From: Halomonas ventosae
GTDB taxonomy: Bacteria > Pseudomonadota > Gammaproteobacteria > Pseudomonadales > Halomonadaceae
NCBI RefSeq assembly: GCF_004361885.1
Contig: NZ_SNWH01000004.1
Location: 124,001 to 188,000, forward strand
Direction: 5' to 3'
Length of the DNA: 64,000 nucleotides
Below are positions 4,916 to 27,099 of the stretch, piece after piece. Position 1 is the stretch's first letter, and every line of letters begins with the position of its first letter. The translations under genes and the position numbers were made by a program. A model generated the notes under the pieces. It did not search any database and had not been told where the DNA came from. It saw only the letters and a list, made by a program, of their open reading frames with translations.

Positions 4916-7900
4916 TCAGCCCTGCTTGCCCTCCTGGGCCTTGGCCTCCTGCTCGCGACGGCGGATCTCCCGCGGGTCGTTGTGAGCGCGGCGACGGCGG
5001 CTTGCGCGGCTCTCTGCCGCCTGCTCCTCGGCCTTCGCTTCCGGCTCGGCTTCGGCTTCCGGTTCGGGAGACGTGTGCTCGGATTTCGCTGCCTCGGCCT
5101 TGGCAGGTGTTTCGGGCGCTTTTTGCTGCACCGTCGCTGCGTCCGGCTGGGGCTCGGCCTCGGGCTTGGCCGGCTTGCGCTCGGCCTTGGGTACATCCGG
5201 CTGGGCCTCGGTCGACTTGTGCTCGGCCTTGGCTTGCGCGGGCTGCTGCTCCGCCTGGGGTTCGGCCTTGGCAGCCGGCTGGCCGCTTGGCTGCTTGGCT
5301 GACGCGGTGTTGGCCTTCGCTTCGGCGGGCTTATCTAACGGCTTGGCCTCCTGTTCGTCTGGTTGAGTGGGAGCCTCGGGCGCTGCCTTCGGCTCGACAG
5401 GCTGCTCGGTTGGCTTCTGCTCGGCTTCGGGCATCTCGGACCTGGCCTTGGCGTTTTCTTCGCTACCCTCGGAAGGTGTCTCGACCGGCTTCTGCTGAGT
5501 CTTTGCTGCCTCCGGCTTGGCCTCTGATTTAGGCTCGGCTTTTACTTCGGCGGGCTTGTGCTCCGCCTTCGCTGGCTCCGGCTTGGCGTCGGCTTTGGCT
5601 GCTTGACGGTTTGGTTGCTTGGCTGGCGCTGATTCGGCCTTCGCCTCGGCAGGCTGCTCGGTTGGCTTCTGCTCGCTCTTCGACGATGTCGGCTTGGCCT
5701 CGCCTTTTGCTTCCTGCTTGGCCTGGGTCGCCTGATCGCCTGGCTGCTTGGCCCCTTCCGGCTCGGCCTTGGCCGACTTGGCATCGGCGGTCACTTCGCT
5801 GGGCTGGGATTGCGCCTTGGCGGCCTCGGCCTGCAGGCGCTGCTGTTCGGCTTCGGCCTGGGGATTGATGGCATGCTTGCGGCTACGTTGGCGCGGGTTG
5901 TTGCGCGTGCGCTTGGGCTTGCCATCATCCACCGGCGCTTCGGCGGTTGTCGGCGTCTCGGCACGCTTCTCGACCGGCTTCTCGGCGGGCTTGTCGCTGC
6001 CTTTTTGGCGGCGGGCGTCGTCGCGGGGCTTCTGCTCGCGGCCCCTTTCATCGCGGCCCCTTTCATCGCGGCCCTTTTCATCGCGAGGCTTGTCGTCACG
6101 GGCCTTGTCGTCATGTGATATCGGCGTCTGTTGTGGGCGCGTCTGGCGGCTCTCGTCGGAGCGGGAGCCGCGTCCTCGCCCGCGGCGGCTGCCGCGGCCC
6201 TCGGTGCCGGCGGGCTTGCTGTCGTTGCGCTCGTCTTCCTGGCGGGAGGCACTGCGACGTTCATCGCTGCGCTGGCGGCCATCGCGACCGCCGCGCTCAT
6301 CGTTGCCTCGGGCGGGCTTGCGGCCACGCTGGTCGCCATGCGACTCGCCTGAGCGGGCGGATGGCTTCTGCCCGGTAGTGGTGGCAGGGGCTTCATCGCT
6401 GCCGAGCAGCTTGGCCAGTCCTTTGACCAGCCGGCCCAGCACGCCGGCCTGAGGCCCGGGGAGGGGAGGCGTCGGCGCTGCCCTGGCGTCGGTCCGGGGC
6501 GGCGTCACGACCGCCGCAGGCGCTTTTTCCTCCTGCTGGAGAGAGTCCGGCGCCGGCTCGTGATGGATCACCGTCTTCACCGCCGCCTCGGCACGCTGGA
6601 CCGGCTTGCCGAAGGCGGCCTCGGGTTCCTTGCCGACCTCGGTATCGGTGGAGAGTTCGAAGCTGGAGAGGGTAGCGGTGCCCTCCTCGTCGACATGGTC
6701 GTCGCGCAGGCGTTGGACGTCGTAGTGGGGCGTGTCCATCTCCGGGTTGGGCAGCATTACCACGCGTACGCCCTGGCGTCGCTCGATCTCGGCCAGCACG
6801 GCGCGCTTCTCGTTGAGCAGGTAGGTGGCCACTGGCACCGGCAGGATGGCGCGGATCTGGGCGCTGTGCTCCTTCATCGCCTCTTCCTCAATGAGGCGCA
6901 TGATGGAGAGCGAGATGGAACGCACGTCGCGGATGGTGCCCTGGCCGTCGCAGCGCGGGCAGACCACGCCGCTGGTCTCGCCCAGCGAAGGGCGCAGGCG
7001 CTGGCGGGACATCTCCATCAGGCCGAAGCGCGAGATGCGCCCGATCTGCACCCGGGCGCGGTCGAGCTTGAGGGCGTCGCGCATGCGGTTCTCGACCTCG
7101 CGCTGATTGCGCGCCGGGCTCATGTCGATGAAGTCGATCACCACCAGGCCGCCGATGTCGCGCAGGCGCAGCTGGCGGGCGATCTCGTCGGCCGCCTCAA
7201 GGTTAGTCTGCAGCGCCGTCTCCTCGATGTCGCTGCCGCGAGTGGCGCGCGCCGAGTTGATGTCGATGGAAACCAGCGCCTCGGTATGGTCGATGACGAT
7301 GGAGCCGCCTAACGGCAGCTTGACCTCACGCTCGTAGGCGGTTTCGATCTGCGACTCGATCTGGAAACGCGAGAAGAGCGGGACTTCGTCGACGTAGAGC
7401 TTGATCTTCTGTTGGTAGGAGGGCATCACCTGGCGGATGAAGGCCAGCGCCTCCTGGTGGACCTGTTCGCTGTCGATCAGCACCTCGCCGATGTCCTGGC
7501 GCAGGTAGTCGCGCATGGCGCGGATGATGACGTTGGATTCGCGATAGATCAGGAAGGGCGCCGGGTGCTTGCCAGCCTCTTCGGTGATCGACTCCCAGAC
7601 ATGCACCAGGTAGTCCAGATCCCACTGCAGCTCCTCGGGGGAGCGGCCGATACCAGCCGTGCGCACGATTAGGCCCATGTTGTCGGGGACGGTGAGCTGG
7701 TTCATGGCCTCCTTGAGCTGGCTGCGCTCCTCGCCCTCGATGCGCCGCGAGATGCCGCCGGCTCGGGGGTTGTTGGGCATCAGCACCAGAAAGCGTCCGG
7801 CGAGGCTGATGAAGGTGGTCAGGGCGGCGCCCTTGTTGCCGCGCTCCTCCTTGTCCACCTGGACGATGACTTCCTGACCCTCCTTGAGCACCTCCTTGAT

Positions 7901-22121: not shown

Positions 22122-22694
22122 ATGCAACTCGATCCATTGCTGGCCCAGATCGATCCCGACGGCGAAATTCCCCCCGTCGATCGCTGGCATCCCGAACATG
22201 GAGGTGAGATGGACCTCACCATTGCTGCCGATGGTCGCTGGATTCATGAAGGCACGCCCATCGCCCGACCGCGGCTGGTGCGCCTGCTTTCGACCATCCT
22301 GCGCCGCGAGCCCGACGGGAGCTACCTGCTGGTGACACCGGCCGAGTGGCAGCGGATCCGAGTCGAGGATCGACCCTTCCTGGTAGTGGATGCCGAGCAC
22401 GAGCAGGACGGCACCTGGTGGTTGACCACCAACGTCGGCGATCGCCTGGCACTTGGCGAGGAGCGTCGGCTGGAACTCAGCGAAACCCCGTCCGGCGAGA
22501 CGGTACCGGAGGTGGCGGTGCGTTTCGGCCTCAACGCCCGGCTGGGCCGCAACGTCTACTATCGTCTCGTAGAGCAGGCCGAAACGCGGGAGCTCGGTGA
22601 CGGCAGCCTCGAGCTGGGCCTGACCAGCCAGGGCAGCTGGCAGCCCCTGGGGAGGCTGGACGCCGAGGCGCGGCGTGACAGCGAGTCGACATGA
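22122..22694 (+). CDS. DUF1285 domain protein
   Basis: A 190-residue protein matching the DUF1285 pattern: PPVDRWHPEHGGEMDLTI near the start, DGRWIHEGTPIARPRLV, SYLLVTPAEWQRIRVED, and FGLNARLGRNVYYRLV. The start is set by GGGGGAGGG ten bases upstream of ATG 22122. The function is unknown. The stop overlaps the start of the following helicase (ATGA). Confidence 0.85.
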   Translation: MQLDPLLAQIDPDGEIPPVDRWHPEHGGEMDLTIAADGRWIHEGTPIARPRLVRLLSTILRREPDGSYLLVTPAEWQRIRVEDRPFLVVDAEHEQDGTWWLTTNVGDRLALGEERRLELSETPSGETVPEVAVRFGLNARLGRNVYYRLVEQAETRELGDGSLELGLTSQGSWQPLGRLDAEARRDSEST

Positions 22695-24916
22695 CACTGA
22701 TCCGCGAGCTGACCCCCGAGCAGCGCGCCGTGGTCACCCACGAACATGGCCATGCCCGGGTGACGGCGGTGGCCGGTGCCGGCAAGACCACGACCATGGT
22801 TGCCCGGGTGCTGCACCTGCTCGCGCAGGGGGTGCCCCCGGAGCGGATTCTAGTGCTGATGTTCAACCGCTCGGCCCGGGAGGACTTCCAGGCTCGTCTG
22901 GCGCAGATGGCCCCCCCTGGCCAGGCGCTGCCCGACGTGCGCACCTTCCACTCCCTTGGTCACCGGCTGACCGGTAGCCTGGCCCGCTGGGGGGCGCTCG
23001 CGCCGCGTCAGCTGCTCACCGCCGACTGGCAACTTGAGCGATTGCTGCGCCAGGCTACCCTGGCCGCCCTGAGCGAGGCCCCCGAGGCGCGCGAGACGGC
23101 CCTGGAGGCCGAGCGCCTCGAGGCGCTGGCCCACTTCTGCGGCCTGGTGAAGGCGGAGATGGCCTCGCCTGCCGAGCTGCACCGCCAGCTCGACTTTGGC
23201 GAGGAGACGGACCACTTCGTGGCCGCCTTCGAGCATGCCGAGTGGCTGCTGGCTGACCAGGGACTGATGACCTTTGCCGACCTGCTTTATCGGCCTCTGC
23301 GGGCGCTGGAGGCGAATGAGGGCCTGCGAGGCCGGGTCCAGGGGTTTCTCGACCACGTGGTTATCGACGAGTACCAGGACGTCAATACCGCCCAGCAGCG
23401 GCTGCTGGCGCTGCTGGTTGGCAACCAGGCCGAGGTCATGGCGGTAGGCGATGCCAACCAGTGCATCTACGAGTGGCGGGGGGCCCACCCCGACACCATG
23501 CTGGAGACCTTCACCGCCACCTTCGGGGCGGCCCGTGACTATCCGCTCTCGACCACCTTCCGCCACGGCCACGCCCTGGCGCTGACCGCCAATCATGCCA
23601 TCGCCGCCAATCGGCGGCGGCCCGACCAGCTCTGCCTGGCCGCGCCGGGCAACCCCGCCACTGGCCTGGCCGTGGGGCAGGGCAGCCCGGGGCTGCTGGC
23701 CGAGCTCACCGACTGGCGGCGCGGCGGGCGCGGGCTGGAGGAGGCCTGCCTGCTGGTGCGCAGCTGGGCGCTGTCGGTACCGCTGCAGCTGGCGCTGCTG
23801 CGCGAGGGCATCCCCTTCCGCCTGTCCCGCGAGGATCGCTTCGTCTTTCGCCTGCCGCTGGTCGAGGCGTTGGCCGGCTACCTGCGTCTGGCCATCGAGC
23901 CCCATCGGCTCCAGAACCCGGGCCACCTGGCGATGCTGCTGGCACAGCCCACCCCCTTCGTGGCCCGCGAGCGGCTGCTTGTCCTGGCCGGCCGGCTGGC
24001 CGAGACCCAACGCTGGCCGGAGCGCCACGATCCGCTGCTCGATGGGCTCAGGCCCCACCAGCGGCGCACCCTCAAGAAGCGCTGGGCACTGCTTTGCGAG
24101 CTGCCGCGTTTATCGGCCTGGCCGCCGGCGCGTCTGCTCGAGCATGTGGTGTCCGAGGTTGACGCCGAGAAGGTGCTCAAGCGTGCCGCCGCCCGGCGCG
24201 ACAAGGGCGAGGAGGACGTGCGTCTGCTCGACGTGCTGGTCGAACAGGCCGGCGAACTGGGCAACGACACCGAGGCCTTCATCGAGCTGCTCTCGCGACC
24301 GGTGGAGAACCGCGACGACGGGGTGCTGATCAGCACGGTACACGGGGCCAAGGGGCTGGAGTGGCCGCTGGTGCTGGTGGCCGGCGTCAACGAGGAGGAC
24401 TTTCCCCACTATACCCGCGACAATCCCCTGACGACGGGGCGCCTGGAGGAGGAGCGACGGCTCTTCTATGTGGCTATCACCCGCGCGCGCGAACGCCTGG
24501 TGCTGATTCACGACGGCGGTGACCACCGCCCCAGCCGCTTCATCGGCGAGTCCGCATGGGAGGATGGCCAGCAGGTGGCTCACCGGCTCGACGGCGCCCA
24601 GGCGGTAGAGGAGCAGCGTCCTCTGGCGGTGTCCGACCCCAGCCTGGTACAGCGTTACCTGGACGCGCTGGGCCACACGCTGCCGCTGGTGGCGGCACAA
24701 CCTGCTGCCGCGAAAGCGGGTGTCGCGGAGACGCCGTCAACCAGTTTCCGCGTCGGCCAGGCCCTGCGCCATGCGGTGTTCGGCGAGGGCCGGATCAGCG
24801 TGGTGGAGGGCGACCCGGACAACCCGGTGATCGAGGTACGCTTCCACCATGCCGGGCGGCGTCGCCTGATCGCCCGCCGGGCCCCCATCGAATTGCTTGA
24901 GGGAGTCAACGCATGA
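22691..24916 (+). CDS. UvrD/PcrA-like superfamily 1 DNA helicase
   Basis: A 741-residue SF1A helicase. Motifs in order are Walker A VAGAGKTTTM (~30-39), Ia FNRSAREDF, Walker B VVIDEYQDV (~225), III GDANQCIYEWRGA, V STVHGAKGLEW and VI EERRLFYVAITRARERL. The last ~50 residues (VGQALRHAVFGEGRISVVEG) look like the C-terminal Tudor-like module of UvrD/PcrA that contacts RNA polymerase. It is distinct from canonical UvrD or Rep in its linker and insertion regions. It starts in overlap with the DUF1285 gene, and its stop overlaps a sulfurtransferase stub. The physiological role is not known. Confidence 0.9.
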   Translation: MTLIRELTPEQRAVVTHEHGHARVTAVAGAGKTTTMVARVLHLLAQGVPPERILVLMFNRSAREDFQARLAQMAPPGQALPDVRTFHSLGHRLTGSLARWGALAPRQLLTADWQLERLLRQATLAALSEAPEARETALEAERLEALAHFCGLVKAEMASPAELHRQLDFGEETDHFVAAFEHAEWLLADQGLMTFADLLYRPLRALEANEGLRGRVQGFLDHVVIDEYQDVNTAQQRLLALLVGNQAEVMAVGDANQCIYEWRGAHPDTMLETFTATFGAARDYPLSTTFRHGHALALTANHAIAANRRRPDQLCLAAPGNPATGLAVGQGSPGLLAELTDWRRGGRGLEEACLLVRSWALSVPLQLALLREGIPFRLSREDRFVFRLPLVEALAGYLRLAIEPHRLQNPGHLAMLLAQPTPFVARERLLVLAGRLAETQRWPERHDPLLDGLRPHQRRTLKKRWALLCELPRLSAWPPARLLEHVVSEVDAEKVLKRAAARRDKGEEDVRLLDVLVEQAGELGNDTEAFIELLSRPVENRDDGVLISTVHGAKGLEWPLVLVAGVNEEDFPHYTRDNPLTTGRLEEERRLFYVAITRARERLVLIHDGGDHRPSRFIGESAWEDGQQVAHRLDGAQAVEEQRPLAVSDPSLVQRYLDALGHTLPLVAAQPAAAKAGVAETPSTSFRVGQALRHAVFGEGRISVVEGDPDNPVIEVRFHHAGRRRLIARRAPIELLEGVNA

Positions 24917-25038
24917 CCCACCCGCTGATATCGGCCAGCGCGCTGGCCGAGGCCGGCTAGCCCCTGCCGAGTCTCTACCCTGGCTCCTGGAGCGAGTGGA
25001 TTCGCGACCCGGCGAGGCCCATTGCCACCGGGGACTGA
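24913..25038 (+). pseudogene. Sulfurtransferase (rhodanese/3-mercaptopyruvate type) internally deleted remnant
   Basis: The ATG overlaps the helicase stop. The first 15 codons read MTHPLISASALAEAG, like the start of an SseA-type sulfurtransferase, then TAG. In the same frame the next 25 codons read on to LPSLYPGSWSEW and DPARPIATGD before TGA, matching the family's C-terminus. The ~240 codons between, including both rhodanese domains and the catalytic Cys, are gone. N- and C-terminal ends joined in one frame indicate a single internal deletion with a stop at the junction. It is non-functional as an enzyme. Confidence 0.8.
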
Positions 25039-25072
25039 GTACGGCTTACGCGTCGAGCTCGAGGTGCGACGC

Positions 25073-26740
25073 TCACATATTCGGATAATTTGGCCCGCCG
25101 CCGCCTTCCGGGGCCACCCAGGTGATGTTCTGGGCCGGGTCCTTGATGTCGCAGGTCTTGCAGTGCACACAGTTCTGGAAATTGATCTGGAATCTGGGCT
25201 GGCCTGCGTCATCCTCGATCACCTCATAGACCCCGGCCGGGCAGTAGCGCTGGGCCGGTTCGGCGTACTCGGGCAGGTTGTCGCGGATCGGCAATTCCGG
25301 ATCGTCGAGCTTCAGGTGGCAGGGCTGGTCCTCTTCGTGGTTGGTGTTCGACAGGAACACCGAGGAGGGCTTGTCGAAGGAGAGCTTGCCGTCCGGCCTG
25401 GGGTAATCGATCTTCTCGCACTCACTGGCCGGCTTGAGCGTGGCATGGTCGGGGGTGGTGTCATGGATATTGGGCAGCTTGCCGCCGAGCAGCTGGTCGG
25501 CGAAGTTGTAGGCGCCGCCCATCACGGTGCCGTACTTGTGGATCGCCGGACCGAAGCTGGCGCTCTTCTCGAGTTCTGCATGGCCCCAGCTCGCCTGCCA
25601 CTTCTCGGTGAACGAGGTGAGTTCGCTGCCGCCCTCGTCGCCCTTGGCCACCGCCTCGAACACCGCCTCGGCGGCCACCAGGCCGGACTTCATAGCGGTG
25701 TGCAGGCCCTTGATCTTGGCGAAATTCAGCGTGCCGGCGTCGCAGCCGATCAGCAAGCCGCCGGGGAAGGTCATCTTCGGCAGGCAGTTCAGCCCCCCCT
25801 TGGTGATGGCCCGGGCGCCATAGGCCACGCGCTGGCCACCTTCGAGATGTCGGGCGATCGTCGGGTGGTGCTTCATGCGCTGGAACTCGTCGAAGGGCGA
25901 CAGCCAGGGGTTCTGGTAGGAGAGGTCCATGATCAGGCCGACCATCACCTGCTGGTTATCGCCGTGATAGAGAAACCAGCCACCTTGGGTATGCTTGTCC
26001 AGCGGCCAGCCGGAGCCATGCAGCACCAGGCCGGGTTCATGCTGCTCGGCGGGAATATCCCACAGCTCCTTCAGGCCGATGCCGTAGTGCTGCGGATCCT
26101 TGCCCGCATCGAGGCTGAAGCGCTCGATCAGCCGCTTGCCCAGGTGCCCGCGGGAGCCCTCGGCAAACAAGGTATACTTGGCGCGCAACTCCATCCCCGG
26201 CGTGTAGCTGTCCTTGGGTTGGCCATCGGCGCCCACCCCCATGTCGCCGATCAGGATCCCCTTGACCACCTCCTCCTCGATGATCGCCTCCTGTGCCGCG
26301 AAGCCGGGGAAGATTTCCACGCCCAACGCCTCGGCCTGCTCGGCCAGCCAGCGACAAAGGTTGCCGGCACTGATCAGGTAGCGCGTCAAGTCGCCCCCGG
26401 TGTTGTGCATGGAGGGCGGCACCAGGGCGCCCGGCAGCTTCTGGGCCTTATCGGCATCCTTGAGCAGGTAGACCTCGTCGCGGGTCACCGGCGTGGTCAG
26501 CGGGGCGCCGCGCTCCTGCCAGTCGGGGAACAGCTCCCCCAGGGCCCGAGGCTCGAATATCGCCCCGGAGAGGATATGGGCGCCCACCTCGGAGCCCTTC
26601 TCTACCACGCAGACCGTGAGCTCCTGTTCCGCCTCGTTGGCCTGTTGCATCAAGCGGCATGCCGCGGCGAGGCCCGAGGGACCGGCGCCGACAATGACCA
26701 CATCGACATCCATGGAATCGCGTTCGATTTGTTCTTCCAC
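25073..26740 (-). CDS. Electron transfer flavoprotein-ubiquinone oxidoreductase
   Basis: Membrane-associated FAD and 4Fe-4S enzyme that passes electrons from ETF to ubiquinone, closing the chain from acyl-CoA dehydrogenases. The GTG start at 26740, with AGGAG eight bases upstream, gives 555 residues. The FAD-binding VIVGAGPSGLAAA is near residue 13. The C-terminal ferredoxin-like part has CPAGVY, then the NCVHCKTCDIKDP cluster ligands. It is transcribed away from etfB-etfA. From family knowledge it is often named etfD/etfQO. Confidence 0.96.
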   Translation of the reverse strand: MEEQIERDSMDVDVVIVGAGPSGLAAACRLMQQANEAEQELTVCVVEKGSEVGAHILSGAIFEPRALGELFPDWQERGAPLTTPVTRDEVYLLKDADKAQKLPGALVPPSMHNTGGDLTRYLISAGNLCRWLAEQAEALGVEIFPGFAAQEAIIEEEVVKGILIGDMGVGADGQPKDSYTPGMELRAKYTLFAEGSRGHLGKRLIERFSLDAGKDPQHYGIGLKELWDIPAEQHEPGLVLHGSGWPLDKHTQGGWFLYHGDNQQVMVGLIMDLSYQNPWLSPFDEFQRMKHHPTIARHLEGGQRVAYGARAITKGGLNCLPKMTFPGGLLIGCDAGTLNFAKIKGLHTAMKSGLVAAEAVFEAVAKGDEGGSELTSFTEKWQASWGHAELEKSASFGPAIHKYGTVMGGAYNFADQLLGGKLPNIHDTTPDHATLKPASECEKIDYPRPDGKLSFDKPSSVFLSNTNHEEDQPCHLKLDDPELPIRDNLPEYAEPAQRYCPAGVYEVIEDDAGQPRFQINFQNCVHCKTCDIKDPAQNITWVAPEGGGGPNYPNM

Positions 26741-27099
26741 CTGTTCGCTCCTAGCTGTCCCGGGAACGCGGCCGCAGGGCACGAGCCACGCCGGAAAGAT
26801 TTAAAACGGTCGTTTGCTTCTACTTGCGTCTCATGATAGACATAATATCGACAAAGGGTCACTCTTGCGATGGGAGGCTTGCTCCACCTGGGCAGCCCAT
26901 CGATTGTTGACCAGGATGCGGCTATGGCACAGTGAAAGGGTTTTGCGATGCCTCATCTATCAAACGCATGCATTAAACGCATGGCAATAGGCTGGCCGGT
27001 TTTCGCGCCCGCCTATCATGTTTCGTGTCATGCATCGAGCCGGGGCAGAGGTCATTTCTTCCACCATCAGGTTCGCTACGTGAACCAAGCGAGGACACT
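26741..27099. other. Divergent etfQO / etfBA control region
   Basis: A 359-bp AT-richer spacer with no gene. For etfQO, TATCAT on the minus strand (26838-26833) is a possible -10. It also holds the inverted AAAC-N4-GTTT site listed separately and a 13-bp direct duplication ending in AAACGCATG (26962-26970 and 26975-26983). Confidence 0.5.
26803..26816. promoter_or_regulatory. PsrA-like operator candidate upstream of etfQO
   Basis: The minus strand reads CAAAC-GACC-GTTTT, matching the [C/G]AAAC-N2-4-GTTT[G/C] pattern described for the fatty-acid-responsive repressor PsrA of Pseudomonas except at the last base. It lies ~63 bp ahead of the etfQO start and just downstream of a possible -10, where a repressor would act. 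Confidence 0.45.

Follow-up and report, generated by a model that had tools for sequence, protein, structure and literature searches.

The locus lies in a 64,000-nucleotide stretch of Halomonas ventosae DNA (hereafter the window), where the two ends of a sulfurtransferase gene are enclosed between two genes. Upstream, at 22691..24916 on the forward strand, the list of open reading frames places an intact helicase gene of 741 amino acids, presumably UvrD/Rep-like, and a homologous helicase precedes the sulfurtransferase in relatives. Its TGA overlaps, within an ATGA, the ATG of the remnant at 24913. Downstream, a reverse-strand gene at 25073..26782 (start chosen mechanically), which we take to encode an electron-transfer flavoprotein-ubiquinone oxidoreductase and which is also found downstream in many relatives, converges on the remnant and ends 34 bases past it. 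A consensus scan of 24850-25200 revealed neither a terminator nor a promoter. Between the two genes one frame runs across 24913-25038 and is translated as MTHPLISASALAEAG, TAG, PLPSLYPGSWSEWIRDPARPIATGD and a normal stop, just as the original prediction had described it (15 codons, TAG and a C-terminal segment in a single frame).

Alignment with full-length genes divided the remnant into two parts, both on the forward strand. Positions 24913..24954 correspond to the 5′ end of the gene, codons 1-14 (MTHPLISASALAEA), and positions 24955..25038 to its 3′ end, codons 250-276 plus the stop in the numbering of a 276-codon gene, with one codon replaced by TAG. The original prediction assigned the first 15 codons to the 5′ end; 14 of them do derive from it, while codon 15 (GGC) aligns with the C side. 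The 126 surviving bases align without further gaps and the two ends join within 4 bases. Identity to the C end of the gene was 79-88% over 86-88 bp in L010, L011, L013 and L014, and to its N end 85-90% over 41-42 bp in L010, L011 and L014, L013 giving no separate N-end match at the threshold used; such matches exceed what chance would be expected to produce. Two-domain rhodaneses have two domains and about 270-280 residues, and the remnant, with 14 codons from the 5′ end and 26 sense codons from the 3′ end, TAG lying among the latter, falls outside this class. The stretch CGSG[VI]TA, presumably the catalytic cysteine loop of two-domain rhodanese/3-mercaptopyruvate sulfurtransferase, is present in the proteins of relatives and falls within the part deleted from the window, so it is absent from the remnant.

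Seven close Halomonas relatives (G077, G030, G054, G088, G029, G046 and G019) carry an intact rhodanese-type sulfurtransferase gene of 276 codons at the same place, directly after the helicase, which begins with the N end found in the window and finishes with its C end. In G030, for instance, the full-length gene reads MTHPLITASALADAL... on the N side and ...AVAGRPLPRLYPGSWSEWIRDPSRPVATGD on the C side, matching both ends of the remnant. More distant relatives have genes of 274-277 codons. The refuting observation named in the original prediction, the same short locus conserved as a peptide gene, was absent from the relatives compared, which have the full gene, and a conserved short peptide gene was ruled out on this ground. 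As expected of a deletion pseudogene, the remnant is truncated and collinear with the intact ortholog that close relatives carry in synteny.

Over most of its length the G030 protein matches three structures named 3-mercaptopyruvate sulfurtransferase (3olh, 4jgt and 1urh); with 3olh it shares the CGSG[VI]TACH stretch, none of which is kept by the remnant in the window. Against NCBIfam NF008557 (3-mercaptopyruvate sulfurtransferase equivalog) it scored 100.3 bits (E 9.8e-29), below the curated cut-off of 250 bits. The ortholog is therefore related to the equivalog without belonging to it, and the earlier label "SseA-like" is fair as a family name, not as a substrate assignment.

In each of the seven relatives, 705 bp (235 codons) absent from the window separate codon 14 from the codon that aligns with codon 15 of the remnant. 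The expectation that both ends would align to one full-length gene with a single gap of 650-800 bp was thereby borne out, in synteny and with intact copies in the nearest relatives. The junction was placed at 24951..24954 (forward strand), where the ends meet in GGCC, from the comparison with the seven relatives and from flush alignment blocks. The blocks were obtained with the intact helicase-linked genes of H. ventosae L041 and H. rhizosphaerae L042 (the same sequence as in G088 and G054), which occupy the same place and frame and are homologous to the window at both ends; relative to them, the window lacks 235 codons, the catalytic cysteine loop included, and has one more codon turned into TAG. 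From 20002 to the end of the stretch compared, the window is collinear with both loci in three blocks, which are set apart by a flush 705-bp jump within the sulfurtransferase gene and by the spacer that follows it, the only other clear difference. In window coordinates one block reaches 24953-24954 and the next starts at 24951-24953; on the side of the relative, the coordinates skip from 6260 to 6965 or from 6252 to 6954.

A short direct repeat had been anticipated at the breakpoints. GCC does occur on both sides of the break in six of the seven relatives (the exception being L014), and the shared bases would be four, GGCC, if the ancestor had the GAG GCC of the window on the left; a repeat of three bases, or perhaps four, is too short to prove slippage. 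Since 3-4 shared bases are common by chance, slippage at the break is only plausible.

The in-frame TAG (24958..24960, forward strand) aligns with CGN (arginine) in all seven relatives, so that its origin requires at least two base changes and a story of one deletion alone is incomplete. It is a change separate from the deletion, which it may precede or follow. The claim of one clean deletion instead of gradual decay consequently stands for the flush 705-bp gap and does not extend to TAG. The shorter spacer likewise indicates that the deletion was not the sole local change.

We consider it very probable that the remnant is a recent deletion pseudogene derived from an intact helicase-linked two-domain sulfurtransferase, with 705 bp lost in one event. 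Homology, synteny, the size of the gap and the intact relatives are all directly observed, as is the lack of a match to the missing middle in the rest of the assembly, and a helicase tree of 24 rows, chosen from the loci at hand, places the window among relatives with intact genes. The ancestor would have carried an intact helicase-linked two-domain gene, as the nearest relatives still do, and a single event, probably replication slippage or end joining at a microhomology of 3-4 bases, would have removed 235 codons. TAG would have arisen two codons past the junction, before or after this event. The remainder would encode at most a 15-residue peptide, presumably without function, and the loss may have been tolerated thanks to other proteins of rhodanese type, nine rhodanese matches in seven open frames being still present in the genome.

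An assembly error, in which 705 bp of an actually complete gene were dropped, has in its favor a draft assembly of 64 contigs, and we regard it as highly improbable. The junction lies deep inside a contig of 225,294 bases, the sequence shared at the break is just 3-4 bases long, and TAG beside the junction would demand a second error. A DNA search with the missing 700 bp gave no match in the source assembly (G000), whereas the same query matched G077, G088, G030 and G005 strongly, and G004 over 38 bases only. The better of two protein matches in the source genome (4.0e-14, 31% identity, contig C7) was considered as the lost copy and rejected, being a paralog with an open frame.

Retention of the shortened gene as a helicase-coupled product, a short leader or peptide that is translated, is still less probable. 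The ATGA overlap is indeed present, as originally claimed, the deletion is in frame, and in G004 pieces of this gene have independently been retained as an in-frame fusion of 48 codons. However, ATGA includes the stop of the helicase itself, so its survival is no sign of function of the stub or of selection on it, and of 12 relatives whose gene is intact, 11 share the overlap, the exception being L013 with ATGT. The peptides of G004 and the window are unlike in length and content, and none of the relatives examined has the stub as a conserved gene. Because the context of the start is preserved, translation nevertheless probably initiates at this coupled site and gives 15 residues. Both missing blocks of G004 are in frame as well, which counts against a simple deletion-pseudogene story. 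In 13 intact genes, however, repeats of at least 4 bp were in phase in 4906 of 11650 cases gene-wide (42%) and in 589 of 1508 between the two ends (39%), rather than 33%, and three in-frame gaps are therefore unremarkable. Selection for in-frame deletion was considered and not adopted, the three gaps in two genomes being suggestive and, given these proportions, weak evidence. Gradual decay by many small changes, to which TAG and the shorter spacer could be attributed, is scarcely credible for a remnant whose ends meet within 4 bases and whose 126 bases are free of gaps.

Under the deletion-pseudogene reading the loss looks recent. Comparison of the window with G077 over the 26 C-terminal codons, the stop among them, shows seven synonymous and one nonsynonymous codon differences; the other six relatives give 10:3, 9:2, 9:1, 8:4, 5:4 and 7:6 (synonymous:nonsynonymous), pairs of intact relatives ranging from 3:0 to 3:5. 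Across codons 1-14, nonsynonymous differences equal or exceed synonymous ones in most pairs, for the window and relatives alike. The gene thus seems to have remained under selection until a recent time.

The ortholog is widespread in the genus. A protein search with the G030 sequence recovered it in 86 of the 90 genomes of the genus (E 1.5e-79 or better), a count based on similarity and not on synteny at each locus; a DNA query covering 24793-25160 gave some match in all 90, often just the conserved end of the convergent gene. The four genomes lacking the ortholog were the source genome (best match 4.0e-14), G004 (1.2e-9), G083 (9.1e-14, 77% complete) and G063 (no match, 72% complete). The helicase and the convergent gene of G083 are neighbors with no sulfurtransferase between them, and the G063 contig breaks off within the helicase. 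When only genomes with completeness of 90% or more and contamination of 5% or less are counted, 79 of 81 had the ortholog, and the two without it were the source genome and G004.

At 80 named helicase loci, the gene adjoined the helicase in 49 (including L055, cut by a contig end), no match was present in the stretch examined in 29 (including L075, likewise cut), L051 had a remnant and L095 a split copy. By title, the 29 comprised 16 Vreelandella, 3 Chromohalobacter and 10 Halomonas; in 17 of them the sequence past the helicase was read (for three, the opening 200 bases of a longer interval), and nothing resembling the sulfurtransferase ends was recognised. Outside the genus, G091, G142, G150 and G155 also have no such gene after the helicase.

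Independent loss or breakage of this gene has also occurred in some relatives. In G004, the locus of Halomonas sp. A11-A (L035/L051), the sequence after the helicase end reads MSPSLITASELAEALDSRLPPRLLDCRARLGDHLDLDRDPSRPLATGE and a stop, forming an open frame of 48 codons. Its close relative G005 (97% identity in the helicase end) keeps the intact gene, compared with which G004 lacks two blocks of 51 and 627 bp. Like that of the window, this remnant has internal deletions and both ends kept between the helicase and the convergent neighbor; unlike it, it has two missing blocks, other breakpoints, a 48-codon frame and a separate branch in the tree. There the window and G004 belong to separate, well supported groups with intact-gene neighbors, and the fewest state changes are two; the two losses are independent. 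In Modicisalibacter ilicicola (L095/L122), about 0.2-0.3 kb past the helicase end, the sulfurtransferase gene is divided between two frames close to seven consecutive G residues, reflecting either a fresh frameshift or a sequencing error.

The source genome, at 3.24 Mb, is about 0.7-0.9 Mb smaller than those of G077, G030, G054 and G088 (3.9-4.1 Mb), and its branch in the helicase end is 0.094 long, compared with 0.027-0.042 for the same four; G004 and G005 have genomes of 3.3 and 3.6 Mb. The smaller genomes of the source strain and G004, two cases only, hint at lineages that may be losing genes by reductive evolution. A broader proposal, in which Halomonadaceae would repeatedly lose the helicase-linked sulfurtransferase in lineages with shrinking genomes, and in-frame loss keeping both ends would be favored as it spares the neighbors and shared signals, seems to us unlikely. 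Judged by titles and the beginnings of abstracts, no paper on such a gene (3-mercaptopyruvate sulfurtransferase) in Halomonas was found. Taken alone, the case is an ordinary gene loss of little importance; it is one of several in which an accessory sulfurtransferase was lost or broken in Halomonadaceae, and the stub should carry a pseudogene label in annotation.

Compared with L041 and L042, the window has about 70-85 bases fewer between the sulfurtransferase gene and the convergent gene. The length of this spacer differs among relatives, that of G046 being about as short as in the window, and the contig of G077 ends within it. In L010, L011 and L019 the spacer before the convergent gene contains short tandem repeats, e.g. 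GGCTCCT and CTTCCAG units, which vary between species.
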